Below, in pieces: positions 6,040-14,162 of a DNA stretch of 64,000 nt. Numbering within the stretch: position 1 is the first letter of the stretch; every line of letters starts with the position of its first letter. The notes beneath the pieces were generated by a model. The model was not told where the DNA came from, searched no databases, and worked only from the letters and a program-made list of their open reading frames with translations. This stretch comes from Corallococcus coralloides DSM 2259 (GTDB lineage Bacteria; Myxococcota; Myxococcia; Myxococcales; Myxococcaceae). The translations under genes and the position numbers were made by a program. Location of the stretch: contig NC_017030.1 of NCBI RefSeq assembly GCF_000255295.1, positions 1-64,000 of the forward strand. Reading direction: 5' to 3'.

Positions 6040-7551
6040 ATGCACCGCCGAATCCTCACTGCCCTCCTCACGCTGTCCGTCGCCGGCTGCGCCACCACGA
6101 AGCCCGCGGAGACGCCGGCTGAAACGGCGCCGGCCGCGCAGCCGCAAACCCAGACACCCGCTGCGGACGCGGAGGCGTTCCGCGAGCAGCAGCCCAAGCC
6201 CGGCAAGCCGCCGGAGCTGGTGCTGCCCACCTTCGAGCAGGCGAAGCTGGACAACGGCCTCACCGTCATCGTCAGCACGCGCAAGGAATTGCCGCTGGTG
6301 TTCGTGGGCATCGCCTTCGCCGCGGGCGTGTCGCAGGAGCCCGCCGCGAAGCTGGGCATCGCGGATCTGTCCTACCGGATGCTGCTGGAGGGCGCGGGCA
6401 AGCGCGACACGGTGGCGCTGGACAACGCGTTCGCGGACCTGGGCGTGTCGCCCGCGCTGTCGGTGGACCCGGACGGCGCCTTCGTGGGCGCGCGCGTGCT
6501 CACCACCAACGTGGACGCGGCGATGAGCCTGCTGTCGGACGTCGTCCTGCGGCCCACCTTCGACGCGAAGGCCTTCGAGCGGCGCAAGAAGCAGCAGCTG
6601 GGTGAGCTGGTGCGCCGCATGGGCGACCCGAACTTCCTGGCGCAGCAGGCCTACTACCAGGCCGTGTTCGGCGCGGACCACCCGTACGGCCATACGTCCG
6701 GCGGTACGCCGAAGACGGTGGAGTCGCTCACGCTGGCGGACGCGAAGAACTTCTACACGAAGAACACGGGCCCTCGCGCCGCCGCGCTCATCATGACCGG
6801 CGACGTGACGCTCCAGCAGGCGGTGGAGTGGGGGAAGAAGTACTTCGGCGGGTGGAAGGGTGGGGCCGTGGCGCCCAAGCCGCCGCCCGCGCCGCCCGCG
6901 CCGCCGCGTCAGCAGGTGCGCGTGGTGCCCAAGCCGGGCCTGGAGCAGACGGTGGTGCTGGTGGGGCGTCCCGGCCTCGCCTCGGGCCACCCGGACGAGT
7001 ACCCGCTGGAGCTGGCGACCACGGTGTTCGGCGGCTTCTTCGGCAGCCGGCTCAACATGAACATCCGCGAGGACAAGGGCTACAGCTACGGCGCCAACGC
7101 GAGCCTGGGCACGCGCCTGGGCGTGGGACCGCTCACCGCGTACGCGGCCGTGCGGCGCGACGTGACGGGCCCGGCGCTCAACGAGTTCATCAAGGAGCTG
7201 GCCGGCATCAAGTCCAACCCCATCACGGAGAAGGAGCTGGCGGCCGCGCGCGAAGGCCTCATCCGCGCGTTCCCGGGCGCCTTCGAGACGGTGGAGGGCC
7301 TGGGCGGCAGCGCCGCGCAGCTCTACTTCCACCGCCGGCCGATGGATGAGTTCAAGCGCACCGTGGAGGGACTGGAGAACGCCAGCGCCGCGGAGGTGCA
7401 GCGCGTGGCCGAGTCCTACCTGGACCCCGCCAACATGCAGGTGGTGCTCGTGGGCGACCCGCTGGTCATCCAGGAGCAGGTGACGCCGCTCAACCTGGGC
7501 AAGCTCACGCTGGTGGAGACGCCGGCGTCGGAGTCACCTGCGCCCAAGTAG
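6040..7551 (+). CDS. M16 family peptidase homologue, inactive lipoprotein partner
   Basis: A 503-residue lipoprotein with a VAGC lipobox (Cys17), then a Pro/Ala/Thr-rich linker to about residue 60, then two M16 half-domains. At the place of HxxEH the sequence reads LSYRMLLEG, so zinc ligands are missing and catalysis is not expected. M16 pairs of one active and one inactive chain are well known, and the 2-bp spacing to the active gene supports a complex anchored by this subunit. A long Pro-Ala run (KPPPAPPAPP, near residue 285) separates the two halves. The strong terminator at 7580-7618 ends the operon. Confidence 0.9.
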   Translation: MHRRILTALLTLSVAGCATTKPAETPAETAPAAQPQTQTPAADAEAFREQQPKPGKPPELVLPTFEQAKLDNGLTVIVSTRKELPLVFVGIAFAAGVSQEPAAKLGIADLSYRMLLEGAGKRDTVALDNAFADLGVSPALSVDPDGAFVGARVLTTNVDAAMSLLSDVVLRPTFDAKAFERRKKQQLGELVRRMGDPNFLAQQAYYQAVFGADHPYGHTSGGTPKTVESLTLADAKNFYTKNTGPRAAALIMTGDVTLQQAVEWGKKYFGGWKGGAVAPKPPPAPPAPPRQQVRVVPKPGLEQTVVLVGRPGLASGHPDEYPLELATTVFGGFFGSRLNMNIREDKGYSYGANASLGTRLGVGPLTAYAAVRRDVTGPALNEFIKELAGIKSNPITEKELAAAREGLIRAFPGAFETVEGLGGSAAQLYFHRRPMDEFKRTVEGLENASAAEVQRVAESYLDPANMQVVLVGDPLVIQEQVTPLNLGKLTLVETPASESPAPK

Positions 7552-7579
7552 CCGGGCGCTTCGCTTTGAAGCATTGAAG

Positions 7580-7618
7580 CCGGGGTCCCGACATGGGTGT
7601 CGGGGCCCCGGTTTTTTT
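7580..7618 (+). terminator. Rho-independent terminator of the M16 operon
   Basis: A 13-bp stem (7580-7592 with 7599-7611, one G-T pair) closes a 6-base loop and is followed by seven T residues (7612-7618). It lies 28 bases after the M16 stop and abuts the stop of the convergent gene at 7618, so it may serve both. Confidence 0.93.
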
Positions 7619-8007: not shown

Positions 8008-8037
8008 CTGACCTTGGCGCGCGGAAGCGGCTAGGAT
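8008..8037 (+). promoter_or_regulatory. possible vegetative promoter of the threonine leader
   Basis: CTGACC (8008-8013) and TAGGAT (8032-8037) are 18 bp apart and match four of six bases each of the sigma-70-type boxes. Initiation near 8044 would put the transcript start just ahead of the leader ORFs. Weak by sequence alone; position is the main support. Confidence 0.35.
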
Positions 8038-8118
8038 GGGGACTCCATGGTCGGACGCAGCGGGAACAACCAGCGGCACGAGGGGACGACGTCCTCCGTG
8101 GGCGCGCGCGTCCAGACC

Positions 8119-8178
8119 ATGCTGACCGAGACTTGCACTCGCACCGGCCTGACTCCTCGCGGAGCGCGGACCGCCTGA
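8119..8178 (+). CDS. threonine-rich leader peptide of an attenuator (thrL-like)
   Basis: A 19-residue ORF, MLTETCTRTGLTPRGARTA, with six threonines, five of them within ten codons (8125-8154) as ACC, ACT, ACT, ACC and ACT. It lies upstream of an aspartokinase-homoserine dehydrogenase gene and ends 42 bases before a terminator hairpin. This is the arrangement of thrL in enteric bacteria, where ribosome stalling at Thr codons controls readthrough. In-frame upstream starts also exist: GTG at 8098 and ATG at 8047, the latter giving 43 residues with nine threonines and preceded by GGGGA at 8038-8042. Which start is used cannot be decided; no strong ribosome binding site precedes 8119. Confidence 0.7.
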   Translation: MLTETCTRTGLTPRGARTA

Positions 8179-8250
8179 CTTCCGAAGCGGACCTCCTGAA
8201 GGTCCCCCTTCCGAACCCGGCCCCGCGCTCCTCCCGAGCGCGGGGCTTTT
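8162..8250 (+). promoter_or_regulatory. threonine transcription attenuator: antiterminator and terminator
   Basis: The octamer GAGCGCGG at 8162-8169, inside the last codons of the leader peptide, is identical to the 3' arm of the terminator at 8236-8243. Both can pair with CCGCGCTC at 8223-8230. A ribosome stalled on the Thr codons (ending at 8154) leaves 8162-8169 free to form the antiterminator. A ribosome that reaches the stop at 8176-8178 covers it and lets the terminator form. A small extra hairpin GGACC/GGTCC (8189-8193 with 8201-8205) lies between and could be a pause or spacer element. The logic follows the enteric thr attenuator; the mechanism here is inferred. Confidence 0.72.
8221..8250 (+). 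terminator. attenuator terminator hairpin
   Basis: A perfect 10-bp GC-rich stem (8221-8230 with 8236-8245), a 5-base loop CTCCC and a following TTTT at 8247-8250. It stands 106 bases before the thrA start with no other gene between, so it should act on thrA transcription. Confidence 0.8.
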
Positions 8251-8355
8251 GCGTTGCCCCACCTGCCAGTCGCCAACCCCGAGGACCCGTATGACGCCGC
8301 TTCCGATGTGCCGTCCCAGCCACCGAGTCCCGACGTTCCGAGAGGAGGCCGTGTC

Positions 8356-10812
8356 ATGCGCGTGATGAAATTCGGTGGCACCAGTGTCGGAGATGCGGAG
8401 CGGATGCGCGGCGTGGTGGCGCTGGTGGAGGAGGCGCGCAAGGCCGAGCGGGTGATGGTGGTGGCCTCCGCGGTGTCGGGCATCACGAATCTGTTGGTGG
8501 AGGCTGCGAAGGTGGCGCAGGAGGGCGAGTCCGTGCAGGAGGCCTGCGCCCGGTTCGACGACACGCACTCCGCCATCGCGAAGGCGCTGAGCGTGGACCT
8601 GAAGCCCGCGCAGACGCGTCCGCTGGCGGAGGGGTTGGTGGCGCTTGGCGTCGAGCTGCGCGGGCTGTTGCAGGGCGTGGGGCTCCTGCGGGAGTGCTCG
8701 CCGTCGGTGCTGGCGCACCTGTCGGGGCTGGGGGAGCGGGCGTCGTGTTTGCTGCTCGCGGCGCTGCTGGAGGCACGGGGGCTTTCGCCCGTGAGCCTGG
8801 ACCCGAGGCAGGTGCTGGTGTGTTCAGGAGACCCGCTACAGGCGACGCCCCGGGTGGAGGAGATCCGCGCGCGGTTCGCGACGCTGCGTGAGGGCGGGCC
8901 GGGGCTGATGTTGATGCCGGGCTTCTTCGGTGGGGATGCGCGCGGCAAGACGATGTCGCTGGGGCGGGGAGGGTCGGACTACTCGGCGGCGCTGGCGGCG
9001 TCGGCGCTGGATGCGCGGCTGTTGGAGATCTGGACGGACGTGGACGGCATCTTCAGCGCGGATCCGCGGCTGGTGCCGGAGGCGTTCACGCTGGAGGAGG
9101 TGAGCTTCGAGGAGGCGATGGAGCTGGCCTACTTCGGGGCGAAGGTGCTGCATCCGAAGACGATTGCTCCCGCGAGGGAGCGGGGCATCCCGGTGCGGGT
9201 GTGCAACAGCTTCCGGCCCGAGCATCCGGGCACGCGGGTGACGGCCACGGCGCCGGCTTCACGGCACCCGGTGCGGGGGTTGTCGTTCCTGCCGGACATC
9301 GCGCTCATCAACATCGCGGGCGCGGGGTTGAAGGGTGTGCCGGGCACGGCCGCGCGCGTCTTCGAGGCGATGGCGCTGGCGTCCATCTCCGTGGTGCTGA
9401 TCACCCAGGGCTCCAGCGAGTCCTCCATCAGCTTCTGCGTGGGGGAGACGGAGGCCACGCGGGCGGTGCTGGCGCTGGAGGACGAGTTCGAGGTGGAGCG
9501 CGAGGCGGGGAAGGTAGACCCCATCGAGCACCAGCCGGGGCTCGCGGTGTTGAGCATCGTGGGAGACGGGATGCGGCACCGGGTGGGCGTGGCGGGGACG
9601 TTCTTCAGCGCGCTGGCGGACGTGGATTGCAGCATCGCGGCCATCGCGCAGGGGTCGAGCGAGCGGAGCATCTCCGCGGTGATTTCTCGCGAGGACGGGC
9701 CGCGAGCGATGGCCCACGTGCACCGCAAGGCCTTTGGCACCACGGAGGTGGTGGAGCTGCTGGTGGCGGGCGTGGGCACGGTGGGCGGGGAGCTGTTGCG
9801 GCAGATTCATCAGCAGGCGCCGAAGCTGCGGGCACACGGGTTGGATTTGCGCGTGTGTGCCATTGCGAATAGCAGACACAGCCTGGTGGCGCCGGAGGGT
9901 GTGGCGCTGGATGGATGGAAGGCGCGGCTGGAGGCAAGCGAGTCTGGTTTCACGTTGGACACGTTCCAAGCGTGGGCGAAGGCGAGGCGTCCGGGCCGGC
10001 CCATCTTCGTGGACTGCACGAGCAGCGAGGACGTGGCGCTGGGGTATCCGGCGTTGATGGCGTCCGGGCTGCACGTGGTGACGGCGAACAAGAAGGCCAA
10101 TGCGGGGCGGCAGGAGCACTGGAGGGCGCTGCGGGAGACGGCGGTGCGGCACCAGCGGAAGTTCCTCTACGAGACGAACGTGGGGGCGGGGCTGCCGGTC
10201 ATCGACACGTTGAAGAACATGCTGCGCACGGGAGACACGGTGCACCGGGTGGAGGGCATCCTGTCGGGTTCGCTGTCGTTCATCCTGGGGCTGACGGAGG
10301 CCGGGGTGCCGCTGTCGAAGGCCGTGGGCACGGCGATGGAGAAGGGCTTCACGGAGCCGGATCCGCGCGACGACCTGGAGGGCACGGACGTGGCGCGCAA
10401 GGTGCTCATCCTCGCGCGCGAGCTGGGGCGGTCGCTGGAGCTGGAGGAGGTGGCGCTGGCGTCGCTGTTGCCGGAGGAGTTCGACGCGAAGGGGCCGCTG
10501 CCGGAGTTCCTGGCGCGGCTGCCGCAGGCGGATGAGATCTTCCAGAGACGGGTGGATGCGCACCGGAAGGAAGGCAAGGTGCTGCGCTACGTGGGCAGCG
10601 TGGGGCCGGAGGGCGTGCGCGTGGGCCTGGTGCCGGTGCCACTGGAGCATCCGCTGGCGGCGGTGAAGGGCGGCGAGAACGCGCTGAGCTTCCTGTCGGA
10701 GCGGTACAGCCCCACGCCGCTGGTGATTCGAGGCTACGGCGCGGGCGCGGCGGTGACGGCGGCGGGAGTGCTCGCGGATGTATTGCGATTGGTGGAGGGG
10801 CCGTTGCCCTGA
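8356..10812 (+). CDS. thrA: bifunctional aspartokinase / homoserine dehydrogenase (ThrA type)
   Basis: Catalyses the first and third steps from aspartate to homoserine, feeding threonine and methionine. It is 818 residues, close to E. coli ThrA. The aspartokinase begins MRVMKFGGTSVGDA (KFGGTS at 5-10). A regulatory region with two ACT-like stretches (DIALINIAGAG..., GLAVLSIVGDG...) spans about 310-460. The homoserine dehydrogenase NAD-binding site VAGVGTVGGELL is near 470, followed by TANKKAN near 577 and the catalytic domain to the end. AGGAGG at 8343-8348 sits 7 bases before the ATG at 8356. The upstream threonine leader suggests control by attenuation, probably added to feedback inhibition through the ACT region. 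No thrB or thrC is adjacent. Confidence 0.96.
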   Translation: MRVMKFGGTSVGDAERMRGVVALVEEARKAERVMVVASAVSGITNLLVEAAKVAQEGESVQEACARFDDTHSAIAKALSVDLKPAQTRPLAEGLVALGVELRGLLQGVGLLRECSPSVLAHLSGLGERASCLLLAALLEARGLSPVSLDPRQVLVCSGDPLQATPRVEEIRARFATLREGGPGLMLMPGFFGGDARGKTMSLGRGGSDYSAALAASALDARLLEIWTDVDGIFSADPRLVPEAFTLEEVSFEEAMELAYFGAKVLHPKTIAPARERGIPVRVCNSFRPEHPGTRVTATAPASRHPVRGLSFLPDIALINIAGAGLKGVPGTAARVFEAMALASISVVLITQGSSESSISFCVGETEATRAVLALEDEFEVEREAGKVDPIEHQPGLAVLSIVGDGMRHRVGVAGTFFSALADVDCSIAAIAQGSSERSISAVISREDGPRAMAHVHRKAFGTTEVVELLVAGVGTVGGELLRQIHQQAPKLRAHGLDLRVCAIANSRHSLVAPEGVALDGWKARLEASESGFTLDTFQAWAKARRPGRPIFVDCTSSEDVALGYPALMASGLHVVTANKKANAGRQEHWRALRETAVRHQRKFLYETNVGAGLPVIDTLKNMLRTGDTVHRVEGILSGSLSFILGLTEAGVPLSKAVGTAMEKGFTEPDPRDDLEGTDVARKVLILARELGRSLELEEVALASLLPEEFDAKGPLPEFLARLPQADEIFQRRVDAHRKEGKVLRYVGSVGPEGVRVGLVPVPLEHPLAAVKGGENALSFLSERYSPTPLVIRGYGAGAAVTAAGVLADVLRLVEGPLP

Positions 10813-10862: not shown

Positions 10863-11345
10863 TCACTCCCGAGTGTCTTCGGCGGCTCGTGTGACCAGGA
10901 TTTCTTGGAGCATCCCAGGAAGTCTCACGAGGCCGTGGTGCGTGAAGACACGGTGATTCGCATTGGGCGTATAGCCTTCGGGAGTGATTCGTCCGGATTC
11001 GACGGTGAAGTAGCCGATGATGTCCTCGGGAGGCACACGCTCCCCACCGGGGGGCAGCCGTTGATCCGAGATGTAGAGCCACCCCTTGCCGATGCGTTGT
11101 GCCTCGGCCTGGGCGCCTGGATCGGCTGGAGCGCACTCGCGGACGATCTGGTGGAGCAGTGCCACGAAGGCTGGGTTCACCTCGAAGCCATCGGGCCCTC
11201 CGTGAGGGTCATGTAGCGTGCCCGCGATCGCGTGGAGGGGGAGTCCTCCAGCCAGGAATCGCTCTGGCGGCAGCACGGAGATGATCCTCGAAGTCACCTG
11301 CTGCTCGTTGCTCTTCTTCCCGAATAGCGTCTTCCAGAAACCCAT
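10863..11345 (-). CDS. hypothetical protein, 160 residues
   Basis: A soluble protein starting MGFWKTLFGKKSNEQQ. It has no signal peptide, membrane segment or catalytic motif that I recognise. The middle (GGPDGFEVNPAFVALLHQIVRE) looks alpha-helical. The section ERVPPEDIIGYFTVESGRITPEGYTPN is repeat-free and polar. It lies on the opposite strand between the sitA relic and the first sitA6 cassette, so it probably arrived or moved with that island; immunity or cargo roles are possible but unsupported. No strong ribosome binding site is visible before the ATG at 11345. Confidence 0.7.
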   Translation of the reverse strand: MGFWKTLFGKKSNEQQVTSRIISVLPPERFLAGGLPLHAIAGTLHDPHGGPDGFEVNPAFVALLHQIVRECAPADPGAQAEAQRIGKGWLYISDQRLPPGGERVPPEDIIGYFTVESGRITPEGYTPNANHRVFTHHGLVRLPGMLQEILVTRAAEDTRE

Positions 11346-11401
11346 GCGCTGACGCTACCACCGTGGCGGGGACGCACTGGTCTACGGGTAGGCTTTCCAT
11401 C

Positions 11402-12052
11402 ATGAGGAAAAGCCTGACGTTCTGTGCGCTGTTGCTATGGGTGGCGGCGTGCGCGTCCAGCACGCCGCTCCAGCAGCGGTGGGACGAAGCCGAGGCGGAG
11501 TGCGGTGCCGCGAGCAGCGACGCCTGTGTGACCCTGGTGTGTGGGGACACGGCCTGCGGCTTCTTCCGGTGCGAGGACGTGCCCGGGGAGGTGGTGCTGG
11601 CCCGGGGACTGCCGCCCCGGCCGCCACCCGTGGCCGTGGCTCCTGCCCCCGGAAGCGGGCCCCGGCGTAACTGGGGCGCCAGCATGGGCCTGCCGGGCGA
11701 CCCGGAACCCGTGATGGTGTTCCCCTGGTACGGGAACCCCAAGCCCGTGCCTCCTCAGCGGCAGCTACCGGCTGGGAAGTTCGAGAAGCACCACATCTTC
11801 CCGCAGGCGCGGGACCTTGCTGAATGGTTCAAGAGAAAGGAGATCGACATCCACCAGTACACGATCCCCATTCCCGTGCATGTCCACCGACGCATTCACA
11901 GCAATGGGCCCAGTGGGGGCATGTGGAATGAAGCCTGGCGCGAGTTCAAGAACGCGAACGACCTCGCTCCTCCTCAAGAAATCTTCAAGCATGCCGGGGA
12001 ACTGATCTATCGCTTCCAGCTCCTGGGTGGCCCCATCCAGCGGTACAACTGA
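11402..12052 (+). CDS. SitA6-family polymorphic toxin lipoprotein, copy 1
   Basis: A 216-residue lipoprotein of the Myxococcus TIGR02269/SitA type. The signal peptide ends in VAAC (Cys17). A Cys-containing domain (EAEAECGAASSDACVTLVCGDTACGFF) and a Pro-rich linker (RPPPVAVAPAPGSGP) lead to the C-terminal effector with KHHIFPQ near residue 130, HQYTIPIPVHVHRRIHSNGPSGG and WNEAWREF. The HH motif suggests an HNH/endonuclease-VII-like nuclease. In M. xanthus, SitA lipoproteins are passed between kin by TraA/TraB outer-membrane exchange and poison recipients lacking the partner immunity protein. The gene at 12082 is that partner. No sitB-like gene precedes it. Function here is inferred from family. 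Confidence 0.85.
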   Translation: MRKSLTFCALLLWVAACASSTPLQQRWDEAEAECGAASSDACVTLVCGDTACGFFRCEDVPGEVVLARGLPPRPPPVAVAPAPGSGPRRNWGASMGLPGDPEPVMVFPWYGNPKPVPPQRQLPAGKFEKHHIFPQARDLAEWFKRKEIDIHQYTIPIPVHVHRRIHSNGPSGGMWNEAWREFKNANDLAPPQEIFKHAGELIYRFQLLGGPIQRYN

Positions 12053-12081: not shown

Positions 12082-12810
12082 ATGATCCACTTCTTCTGGC
12101 TGCGCAACGACGAGGCAGTCACCTCCCGTTACAGCGGAGACTTCGATGCGGCACACAGGTGGGGACTTCCTGGCCTTAAAGATTGTCCGGGGTGCGGCCT
12201 GACGTGGAGCGGCTCAGGGCGTCAATACCCCGCTGTGAACCTTTCGCTCATCCCCGAGCATTGGGAATTCGAGGAGCCCCGAGCCGAGCCGTTTCACGAG
12301 CTCGTCCGTCTCCGGGAACTGGTGCGCCCACTGGTGCCACCGGATGCATCGCTTCCTCCCGGAACAAGCTTCGGTCCGCTCACGGGCACTGCGTCCGGTC
12401 AGTTCGGGCCGTTCACCTGGCAGGGGACCTCGCTGATGCTCATCCGCCGTGACGCACTCGACGGTCTCCAGGCCGCAGGCATCCGTGGACTGCTGGGGTG
12501 CAAGACGGAGCTGCGGTTCCGGCAGAAGACGCCTCCGGACATCCTCGAACTCCAGATCGAACCGCGCGGCCTCCTGCACCGCGACTGCCTTCCTCCCGAC
12601 CTGGCGCCGCCCTGTCCCACCTGCGGACATCAGTACTTTCGTCGTCCGGACGACCCCATCCTCGACGGTGCTTCATTGCCCACGGACAGGGACCTGTTCC
12701 GCTTGGACAACTTCAGCACCATGATCATCGGCACGGGCCGCTTCAAGGACGCGGTGGAGCAGTGCGGTTGGACCGGCATCTCCTTCCGCGAACTGCCCGT
12801 GCGTTCCTGA
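12082..12810 (+). CDS. SitI6-family double-CXXCG immunity protein, copy 1
   Basis: A 242-residue soluble protein with two CXXCG motifs (CPGCG at 35-39 and CPTCG near 178), the hallmark of the Myxococcus double-CXXCG paralogous family. The four cysteine pairs probably bind zinc. It follows sitA6 copy 1 by 29 bp on the same strand, the normal toxin-immunity order, and should protect the cell from that toxin. GLLGCKTELRFRQKTPP and GISFRELPVR are almost unchanged in the second copy, while the middle region differs, which would fit specificity for different SitA tails. Confidence 0.85.
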   Translation: MIHFFWLRNDEAVTSRYSGDFDAAHRWGLPGLKDCPGCGLTWSGSGRQYPAVNLSLIPEHWEFEEPRAEPFHELVRLRELVRPLVPPDASLPPGTSFGPLTGTASGQFGPFTWQGTSLMLIRRDALDGLQAAGIRGLLGCKTELRFRQKTPPDILELQIEPRGLLHRDCLPPDLAPPCPTCGHQYFRRPDDPILDGASLPTDRDLFRLDNFSTMIIGTGRFKDAVEQCGWTGISFRELPVRS

Positions 12811-13517: not shown

Positions 13518-14162
13518 ATGAGGAAAAGCCTGACGTTCTGTGTGCTGGCGCTGTGGATGGCAGCGTGCGCGTCCAGTACGCCGCTCCAGCAGCGCTGGGA
13601 TGAAGCCGAGGCGGAGTGCGGTGACGCGAGCAGCGACGCCTGTGTGACCCTGGTGTGTGGGGACACGGCCTGCGGCTTCTTCCGGTGCGAGGACGTGCCC
13701 GGGGAGGTGGTGCTGGCCCGGGGACTGCCGCCCCGGCCGCCACCCGTGGCTCCCGCGCCAGGAAGCGGGCCCCGGCGTAACTGGGGCGCCAGCATGGGCC
13801 TGCCGGGTAATGCGGAACCCGTCATGGTGTTCCCCTGGTACGGGAGCCCCAAGCCCGTGCCTCCTCAGCGACGATTGCCGGCGGGGAAGTTCGAGAAGCA
13901 CCACATCTTCCCGCAGGAACAACGCCTGGCTGAGTGGTTCAAGGAGCGAGGCGTCGACATCCACCAGTACACGATCCCCATTCCCGTGCATGTCCACCGG
14001 CGCATCCACAGCAATGGGCCCAGCGGGGGCATGTGGAATGAAGCCTGGCGCGAGTTCCGTGGAGCTAACAGGTTCGCCACGCCTCCAGAGATCTTCAAAC
14101 ACGCTGGAGAACTCATCTATCGGTTTCAGCTGTTGGGTGGTCCCATCGAGAGGTACAACTGA
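13518..14162 (+). CDS. SitA6-family polymorphic toxin lipoprotein, copy 2
   Basis: A 214-residue paralogue of the gene at 11402: same lipobox (MAAC, Cys17), Cys domain, Pro-rich linker and KHHIFPQ effector. Residues up to the HHIFPQ motif are nearly identical. Changes cluster after it (EQRLAEWFKERGV against ARDLAEWFKRKEI; RGANRFATPPEIF against KNANDLAPPQEIF). Drift confined to the tail is typical of toxin-immunity diversification. The partner immunity gene starts 26 bp downstream. The function is inferred as for copy 1. Confidence 0.85.
   Translation: MRKSLTFCVLALWMAACASSTPLQQRWDEAEAECGDASSDACVTLVCGDTACGFFRCEDVPGEVVLARGLPPRPPPVAPAPGSGPRRNWGASMGLPGNAEPVMVFPWYGSPKPVPPQRRLPAGKFEKHHIFPQEQRLAEWFKERGVDIHQYTIPIPVHVHRRIHSNGPSGGMWNEAWREFRGANRFATPPEIFKHAGELIYRFQLLGGPIERYN

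Follow-up and report, generated by a model that had tools for sequence, protein, structure and literature searches.

The window, a stretch of 64,000 nucleotides from Corallococcus coralloides DSM 2259, contains thrA at 8356-10812 on the forward strand, a gene coding for a bifunctional aspartate kinase/homoserine dehydrogenase I (AK-HSD) of the PRK09436 family (NF006959, 995.7 bits with a cut-off of 726). Its start at 8356, proposed in an earlier preliminary description of this DNA, was confirmed, and it is the gene considered below as the regulated one. The next sizeable gene-like ORF downstream, 10863-11345, lies on the opposite strand. Farther on, the window carries genes for a SitA6-family polymorphic toxin lipoprotein (11396-12049), a SitI6 double-CXXCG immunity protein (12082-12807) and, nearby, a second SitA6 copy (13530-14159; TIGR02269 and TIGR02264), the SitA6 pair being likely a duplication. 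On the other side of thrA there is an ORF at 6040-7551 that matches the YfmF family only weakly, without reaching the cut-off, followed by a strong terminator-like hairpin of 18 pairs (7576-7615) which separates this ORF from the thrA leader.

The leader region includes, all on the forward strand, a putative promoter, a Thr-rich short ORF (L1), an intrinsic terminator and a second short ORF (L2). L1 (8047-8178) reads MVGRSGNNQRHEGTTSSVGARVQTMLTETCTRTGLTPRGARTA up to its stop codon and is a putative threonine leader peptide ORF possessing nine Thr among 43 codons. The preliminary description had taken the frame 8119-8178 as the leader, with the sequence MLTETCTRTGLTPRGARTA and Thr as residues 3, 5, 7, 9, 12 and 18, and had mentioned a longer in-frame ORF from ATG 8047; coordinates, letters and Thr counts of both were verified and 39 of the 40 genomes compared preserve the Thr-rich frame, but the ATG at 8119 is not conserved. 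Other codons stand there in most aligned relatives and the frame stays open further upstream, as far as a conserved ATG or GTG, so that 8119 was rejected and, judging from the alignment, the true start of L1 is ATG 8047.

The comparison was based on ThrA orthologs of at least 78% identity, found in Corallococcus and in the genus containing Myxococcus and Pyxidicoccus (hereafter Myxococcus/Pyxidicoccus). Usable DNA upstream of orthologous thrA was obtained for 40 Myxococcaceae genomes, namely 14 of 16 from Corallococcus and 26 of 27 from Myxococcus/Pyxidicoccus, leaving out G020 and G023, in which the thrA start was not found, and G056 with its 62 nt of upstream DNA. Counts given for 38 leaders (12 from Corallococcus and 26 from Myxococcus/Pyxidicoccus) also leave out G021, where L1 is intact and the octamer described below has one mismatch, and G024 (locus L011). 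The latter is a natural variant with a 10-nt deletion which frameshifts L1 and places its new end inside the terminator hairpin, where ribosomes would be expected to block the terminator and hence to cause constitutive readthrough.

L1 begins with ATG in all 12 Corallococcus leaders, and with ATG in 12 and GTG in 14 of those from Myxococcus/Pyxidicoccus. Every one of the 38 leaders contains 9-15 Thr, with 9-11 in the Corallococcus peptides of 41-43 residues and 10-15 in the Myxococcus/Pyxidicoccus peptides of 41-48 residues, the latter having consecutive Thr runs of 5-13. Thr is encoded in these 26 leaders by ACC (149 codons), ACG (147) and ACT (40), a mixture of third bases arguing against a pure trinucleotide repeat. 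No clear amino-acid constraint over the whole of L1 was seen in pairwise counts in either Myxococcaceae group, the omega-like values being 1.47 in Corallococcus and 0.69 in Myxococcus/Pyxidicoccus, which was counted against an attenuator.

The putative promoter (8008-8037) consists of a -35 box CTGACC (8008-8013), an 18-nt spacer and a -10 box TAGGAT (8032-8037). A simple sigma-70 scan found no promoter at this place; a [CT]TGAC box is located 37-40 nt upstream of the L1 start in 35 of the 38 leaders (9/12 in Corallococcus and 26/26 in Myxococcus/Pyxidicoccus). As the start at 8047 sits 10 nt past the putative -10 box and the box-to-start spacing places the predicted 5′ end on the start codon or close to it, the L1 mRNA is probably leaderless.

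The elements needed for two alternative RNA structures can be read directly from the DNA. Antiterminator arm 2 (8161-8169, GGAGCGCGG) lies in the last leader codons and ends 6 nt before the stop, and arm 3 (8223-8231, CCGCGCTCC) is a potential partner of either arm 2, giving the antiterminator, or arm 4, giving the terminator. The intrinsic terminator (8219-8250, -26.5 kcal/mol) has a 12-bp stem (8219-8247) and a 4-T tract. The octamer GAGCGCGG at 8162-8169 is, as described earlier, repeated in the 3′ arm of the terminator, and either copy can pair with CCGCGCTC at 8223-8230; the antiterminator pairing in fact reaches 9 bp, joining 8161-8169 with 8223-8231. A possible protector hairpin 1:2 was also noted at 8148-8169, with an energy of -7.3 kcal/mol in the window.

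These arms are well kept among the orthologs, with the octamer found in 38 of 40 and the terminator 5′ arm motif in all 40. Standard arm 2-arm 3 pairs occupy 333 of 342 cells over the 38 leaders, nine genomes sharing one A-U to G-U change plus a lost end pair, and the pairing of the leader end with arm 3 is better than in dinucleotide shuffles in each of the 38 (p from 0 to 0.023, 300 shuffles each). Mean energies in Corallococcus and Myxococcus/Pyxidicoccus are, respectively, -22.7 and -22.4 kcal/mol for the antiterminator, -26.8 and -23.8 kcal/mol for the terminator and -7.3 and -10.1 kcal/mol for the protector hairpin. The preliminary description had held that relatives lacking Thr enrichment or pairing arms would speak against its model; when examined, the relatives turned out to have both, but the covariation which it had also anticipated within the Myxococcaceae was not seen in the 38 leaders, the arms being almost invariant, and this counts against the model.

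All 38 leaders have 6 nt between the end of the octamer and the stop, though the stop codon is TGA in Corallococcus and TAG in Myxococcus/Pyxidicoccus, while the distance from the stop to the terminator varies from 27 to 43 nt. With this fixed spacing, the octamer would be covered by a ribosome that has reached the stop but left exposed by one standing on any Thr codon as far as 8145, and on this geometry the spacing is what attenuation requires.

Predicted folds agree with such a mechanism in part. With the footprint of a stalled ribosome removed and arm 4 absent, the window RNA forms the 2:3 structure, and with a ribosome at the stop 2:3 cannot form. In the fold of the window RNA with arm 4 still lacking, the protector hairpin was not favoured. 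The terminator wins in the predicted equilibrium fold of the full RNA in each state tried, which was counted against the model; once arm 4 exists the terminator prevails, so antitermination must be kinetic, as it likewise is in enteric attenuators. The nascent window RNA is predicted to favour 2:3 even without any ribosome, leaving unsupported the expected branch in which absence of translation leads to termination and arguing against full textbook behaviour, and the T tract of only four T in the window was also counted against the model.

The features typical of leader-peptide attenuators, i.e. a short ORF rich in the regulated amino acid, an intervening terminator and a mutually exclusive antiterminator, are all recognizable at this locus, and it very probably acts as a ribosome-mediated transcription attenuator of thrA, with charged tRNA-Thr as the signal sensed. 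The preliminary description had suggested enteric-type Thr attenuation upstream of thrA, and ortholog conservation together with the geometry supports this. The ORFs, the arms and the terminator, with their conservation and spacing, and the frame of L2 are seen in the sequences; the promoter and leaderless start as well as ribosome stalling, readthrough and translational coupling are inferred and would act as follows. Transcription would begin at or just before ATG 8047, with a ribosome loading immediately and trailing the RNA polymerase. When Thr is scarce, the ribosome would stall within the Thr codons at 8116-8145, leaving arm 2 (8161-8169) free to pair with arm 3 (8223-8231) while arm 4 is still to come, so that the terminator would be blocked and thrA transcribed; the next Thr codon, 8152-8154, is near enough that a ribosome stalled on it may partly cover arm 2. 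When Thr is ample, the ribosome would reach the stop at 8176-8178 and cover arm 2, arms 3 and 4 would form the terminator and transcription would end near 8250. After readthrough, L2 would be translated and, with its stop overlapping the thrA start, ribosomes would probably re-initiate on thrA. In plain terms, the enzyme is probably made only at low threonine, by the same principle as in enteric bacteria.

L2 (8291-8365) reads MTPLPMCRPSHRVPTFREEAVSCA before its stop codon, which overlaps the thrA start in another frame. It is preceded by a Shine-Dalgarno-like GAGGA (8281-8285), 38 of 40 genomes having AGG or GGA 5-14 nt upstream of L2, and contains the Shine-Dalgarno sequence AGGAGG of thrA (8343-8348), GAGG or AGGT being found before thrA in 39 of 40. 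The ATG of L2, its frame and its overlap with thrA are all kept in 40 of 40 genomes, the distance between the L2 and thrA starts taking seven values, every one of which is 2 mod 3, while the flanking spacers take all residues mod 3 (19/14/7 of 40 and 14/13/11 of 38). An N-terminal part of thrA was considered and ruled out, L2 being in a different frame in all 40 genomes. The amino acids of L2 are under little or no constraint (0.82 and 0.98), so that it seems to be the frame and the stop that matter and not the product, and L2 is probably coupled translationally to thrA, as far as this pattern of conservation can indicate. The first Thr of L2 is codon 2 in 16 genomes, codon 3 in nine, codon 4 in eight and later in seven. 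L2, the likely leaderless start and the Acidobacteriota match described below were absent from the preliminary description, of whose account of the locus the attenuator was retained.

It was also considered that control might be mainly translational, with translation of L2 opening a hairpin in which the thrA start is hidden, and with the upstream elements merely setting a basal level. L2 is kept in all 40 genomes, as would suit such a role, and in the predicted fold the ATGs of L2 and thrA are both nearly always paired (unpaired probability of 0.13 or less) in 10 of 14 Corallococcus genomes. However, the same double pairing was predicted in just 2 of 26 Myxococcus/Pyxidicoccus genomes, with the thrA ATG alone paired in 4 of 26, the near absence of constraint on the L2 amino acids does not favour such a role, and the terminator and L1 are left unexplained, making this reading very unlikely.

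That the hairpin merely ends an upstream transcript or a small RNA, as ordinary terminators do, with the Thr-rich ORF in front of it having arisen by chance or by expansion of an ACN repeat, appears even less probable than translational control. GC-rich genomes do carry long frames by chance, the ACN runs of Myxococcus look repeat-like and four small-RNA families match the hairpin weakly, far below threshold. Short ORFs with at least six Thr in the last 19 residues were searched for in the 64,000-nt window, along with a terminator-like hairpin following them: seven such ORFs were found, and the hairpin follows one of them, L1, with the six others having no terminator. In 100 dinucleotide shuffles the mean number of such Thr-rich ORFs was 0.34 and the arrangement with a hairpin appeared in none. 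Chance or repeat expansion is also at odds with the mixed third bases of the Thr codons, their position directly before the arm and the octamer-stop spacing fixed in all 38 leaders, as well as with the similar layout that Acidobacteriota repeat with different leader sequences, and an upstream terminator is at odds with the upstream gene having its own terminator-like hairpin at 7576-7615. Another sensor, be it a Thr- or protein-binding riboswitch or Rho, with the peptide being incidental, is the least credible of the alternatives: a small GGACC/GGTCC hairpin was seen by eye between leader and terminator in several Corallococcus members, but the window has no Rfam riboswitch match, and the leader-terminator spacers vary in length and sequence while the Thr codons, octamer and stop spacing are kept.

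The distribution of the leader arrangement was followed beyond the Myxococcaceae. ThrA proteins of 56-59% identity occur in 19 of 297 genomes, belonging to the phylum of a Holophagaceae MAG, and together with two genomes labelled Acidobacteriota and the deltaproteobacterial MAG G197 they form a related set of 22 genomes (ThrA identity 53-59%). In 20 of these 22, nearly all Acidobacteriota, a Thr leader and a terminator lie upstream of thrA, G197 and G198 being those without them. Among the last 25 residues of these 20 leaders 3-7 are Thr, most leaders of the set end in RGA or RGT, and the terminator of the 20 lies 20-31 nt past the stop. The order is similar to that in the window, i.e. a TTGAC box (19/22, about 36 nt before the leader ATG where counted by eye), a Thr leader, a terminator and an orthologous thrA. 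Differences are that these leaders usually contain Ile (17/20) and that many of the loci have no separate L2, thrA starting in its place; L218 has no recognised start motif. The leader-arm 3 pairing, with different arm letters, beats shuffles at p < 0.05 in 10 of 21 rows outside the Myxococcaceae, a result counted against the model and obtained with looser hairpin limits than in the first scan, by which L208 was added.

At many of the Acidobacteriota loci L189 and L193-L209 the terminator is directly followed by thrA, beginning MQPTPIRVMKFGG or much the same, and in some Myxococcus/Pyxidicoccus genomes L2 begins MQPTPQ, which by eye resembles this start. The start of L2 may thus be an old thrA start homologous to that of Acidobacteriota.

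More distant homologs gave negative results. The leader arrangement was found in none of the 10 more distant Acidobacteriota ThrA loci scanned. A perfect-stem detector showed no Thr-rich ORF with a hairpin in the 35 scannable regions (of 41) upstream of distant Myxococcota AK-HSD homologs of 33-43% identity, and a second Myxococcota scan gave 0 of 20 regions (eight repeating genes of the first scan, and L176 having 51 nt upstream only). Nor did the same detector find a terminator-like hairpin upstream of two thrC-like genes, the AK-HSD paralog of the same genome or its trpE-, ilvB- and leuA-like genes. Besides thrA, this genome carries the second AK-HSD homolog, G000:C1:8091393-8093573 (39% identity), and a lone aspartate kinase (5881658-5882647). 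Since the detector demands perfect stems it misses real attenuators, having flagged 23 of 80 loci, and the absences in distant homologs are thus weak; a rule requiring at least five Thr in the last 25 residues of a leader ORF picked out a leader at 46 of the 55 gammaproteobacterial loci, the sample comprising the 72 loci L041-L112 minus 17 which were Bacteroidota, KSB1 or truncated. One Bacteroidota locus, L074, was weakly flagged with 4 Thr in 15.

In a tree of 90 ThrA proteins, built by a quick method with a midpoint root and having several long branches, 14 gammaproteobacterial, 22 related and 15 Myxococcaceae rows share one side of a branch with a support of 100, the paralogs and Bacteroidota falling outside it. 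Among the 14 gammaproteobacterial rows, 13 have a leader ORF satisfying the five-Thr rule and L043 has three Thr. From the sequences compared it is plausible that the thrL-thrA arrangement arose once and was then transferred, though it may also have arisen by convergence.

The leaders differ in their Ile content. Ile occurs in the last 25 residues of 46 of 46 detected gammaproteobacterial leaders and 17 of 20 from the related set, but in 0 of 38 from Myxococcaceae, 8 of which have Ile further upstream. Composition as the sole cause was rejected, as the upstream regions are similar in GC content (66.7% in Acidobacteriota versus 70.5% and 69.5%) and ThrA has an Ile fraction of 0.035-0.036 in all three sets (Acidobacteriota and the two Myxococcaceae), yet the leaders stand at 17/20 versus 0/38; gammaproteobacterial ThrA is richer in Ile (0.063), which makes that leader comparison weaker. 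The E. coli thr leader answers to both Thr and Ile, Ile being made from Thr. The Ile pathway gene ilvC was found above the cut-off in 20 of 22 related genomes, G197 and G198, exactly those without the attenuator, being the exceptions, and in 0 of 16 Corallococcus and 0 of 27 Myxococcus/Pyxidicoccus genomes, four of which gave short sub-threshold matches. Leader Ile codons thus track the presence of ilvC, which was counted in favour of the attenuator. In the genome of the window no leuA or ilvB match exceeded the cut-off, the leuA model passing in just 9 of 14 control genomes, and threonine ammonia-lyase (ilvA) is present above the cut-off; it could be catabolic, and its presence is a point against a simple lost-pathway reading. 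A leader tuned to Thr alone suits a lineage in which the remainder of the Ile pathway is lacking, as a correlation only, based on very few evolutionary changes.

A more elaborate scheme would combine two-stage Thr control, in which, once L1 has allowed readthrough, a ribosome stalled at an early Thr codon of L2 keeps the thrA-start hairpin open so that Thr scarcity also switches on translation, with movement of a thrL-thrA cassette between phyla and retuning of its sensor to Thr alone after the loss of Ile synthesis. We regard this combination as speculative and rather unlikely as a whole.

The simpler attenuator would extend classical Thr attenuation to two further phyla and provide a test system in the laboratory genus Myxococcus. 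Terminal Ile is lacking where ilvC was not detected, which suggests reading attenuators as sensors that evolution may retune, and L2 offers a test case for short frames which overlap a gene start and couple or regulate its translation. In the open-access papers searched, no description of a Thr attenuator was found for either myxobacteria or Acidobacteriota, in line with the preliminary description, whose author knew of none in this order. Myxobacteria were counted as Proteobacteria in 2010. In the account given by a survey of that year, leader-peptide systems were known only in Proteobacteria and Actinobacteria, plus its own case in Firmicutes, and predicted attenuators are mentioned for Acidobacteria without a function (PMC2965389).

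Short leader genes near structural genes have been proposed to aid them through ribosome re-initiation, according to the "antenna" idea (PMC4833913). L2 likewise ends at the start of a structural gene, but it overlaps the thrA start and stands behind a separate attenuator, whereas the "antenna" genes are described as being about 10 bp away (PMC4833913). A precedent for a leaderless leader-peptide mRNA is the Sinorhizobium meliloti trpL transcript, reported to begin at the leader ATG (PMC7298713). L1, predicted to be probably leaderless too, resembles it in this respect, but the trpL attenuator, as described there, is an alphaproteobacterial one with Trp as its signal and trpE(G) as its target (PMC7298713).

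The closest known system is the enterobacterial thrL (RF00506), which shares with the window a Thr-rich leader ending like the terminator 3′ arm, a terminator and a thrA gene of the PRK09436 family. The resemblance of the last leader codons to the terminator 3′ arm is a known property of E. coli thrL. The Rfam RF00506 Thr_leader covariance model gave no match above the gathering threshold in the window, and among the loci tested it matched only gammaproteobacterial ones (6/10, versus 0/4 from Myxococcaceae and 0/4 from Acidobacteriota). Unlike RF00506 members, the Myxococcaceae leaders, including that of the window, have no Ile in the last 25 residues, are probably leaderless and are followed by a second ORF overlapping thrA, and the window attenuator appears to control thrA alone, unlike the enterobacterial thr operon leader. 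By its predicted mechanism the locus is a new member of the leader-peptide attenuators lying outside RF00506; the mechanism is old, and what is probably new is the lineage, the Thr-only sensor and the second ORF with its predicted coupling to thrA.
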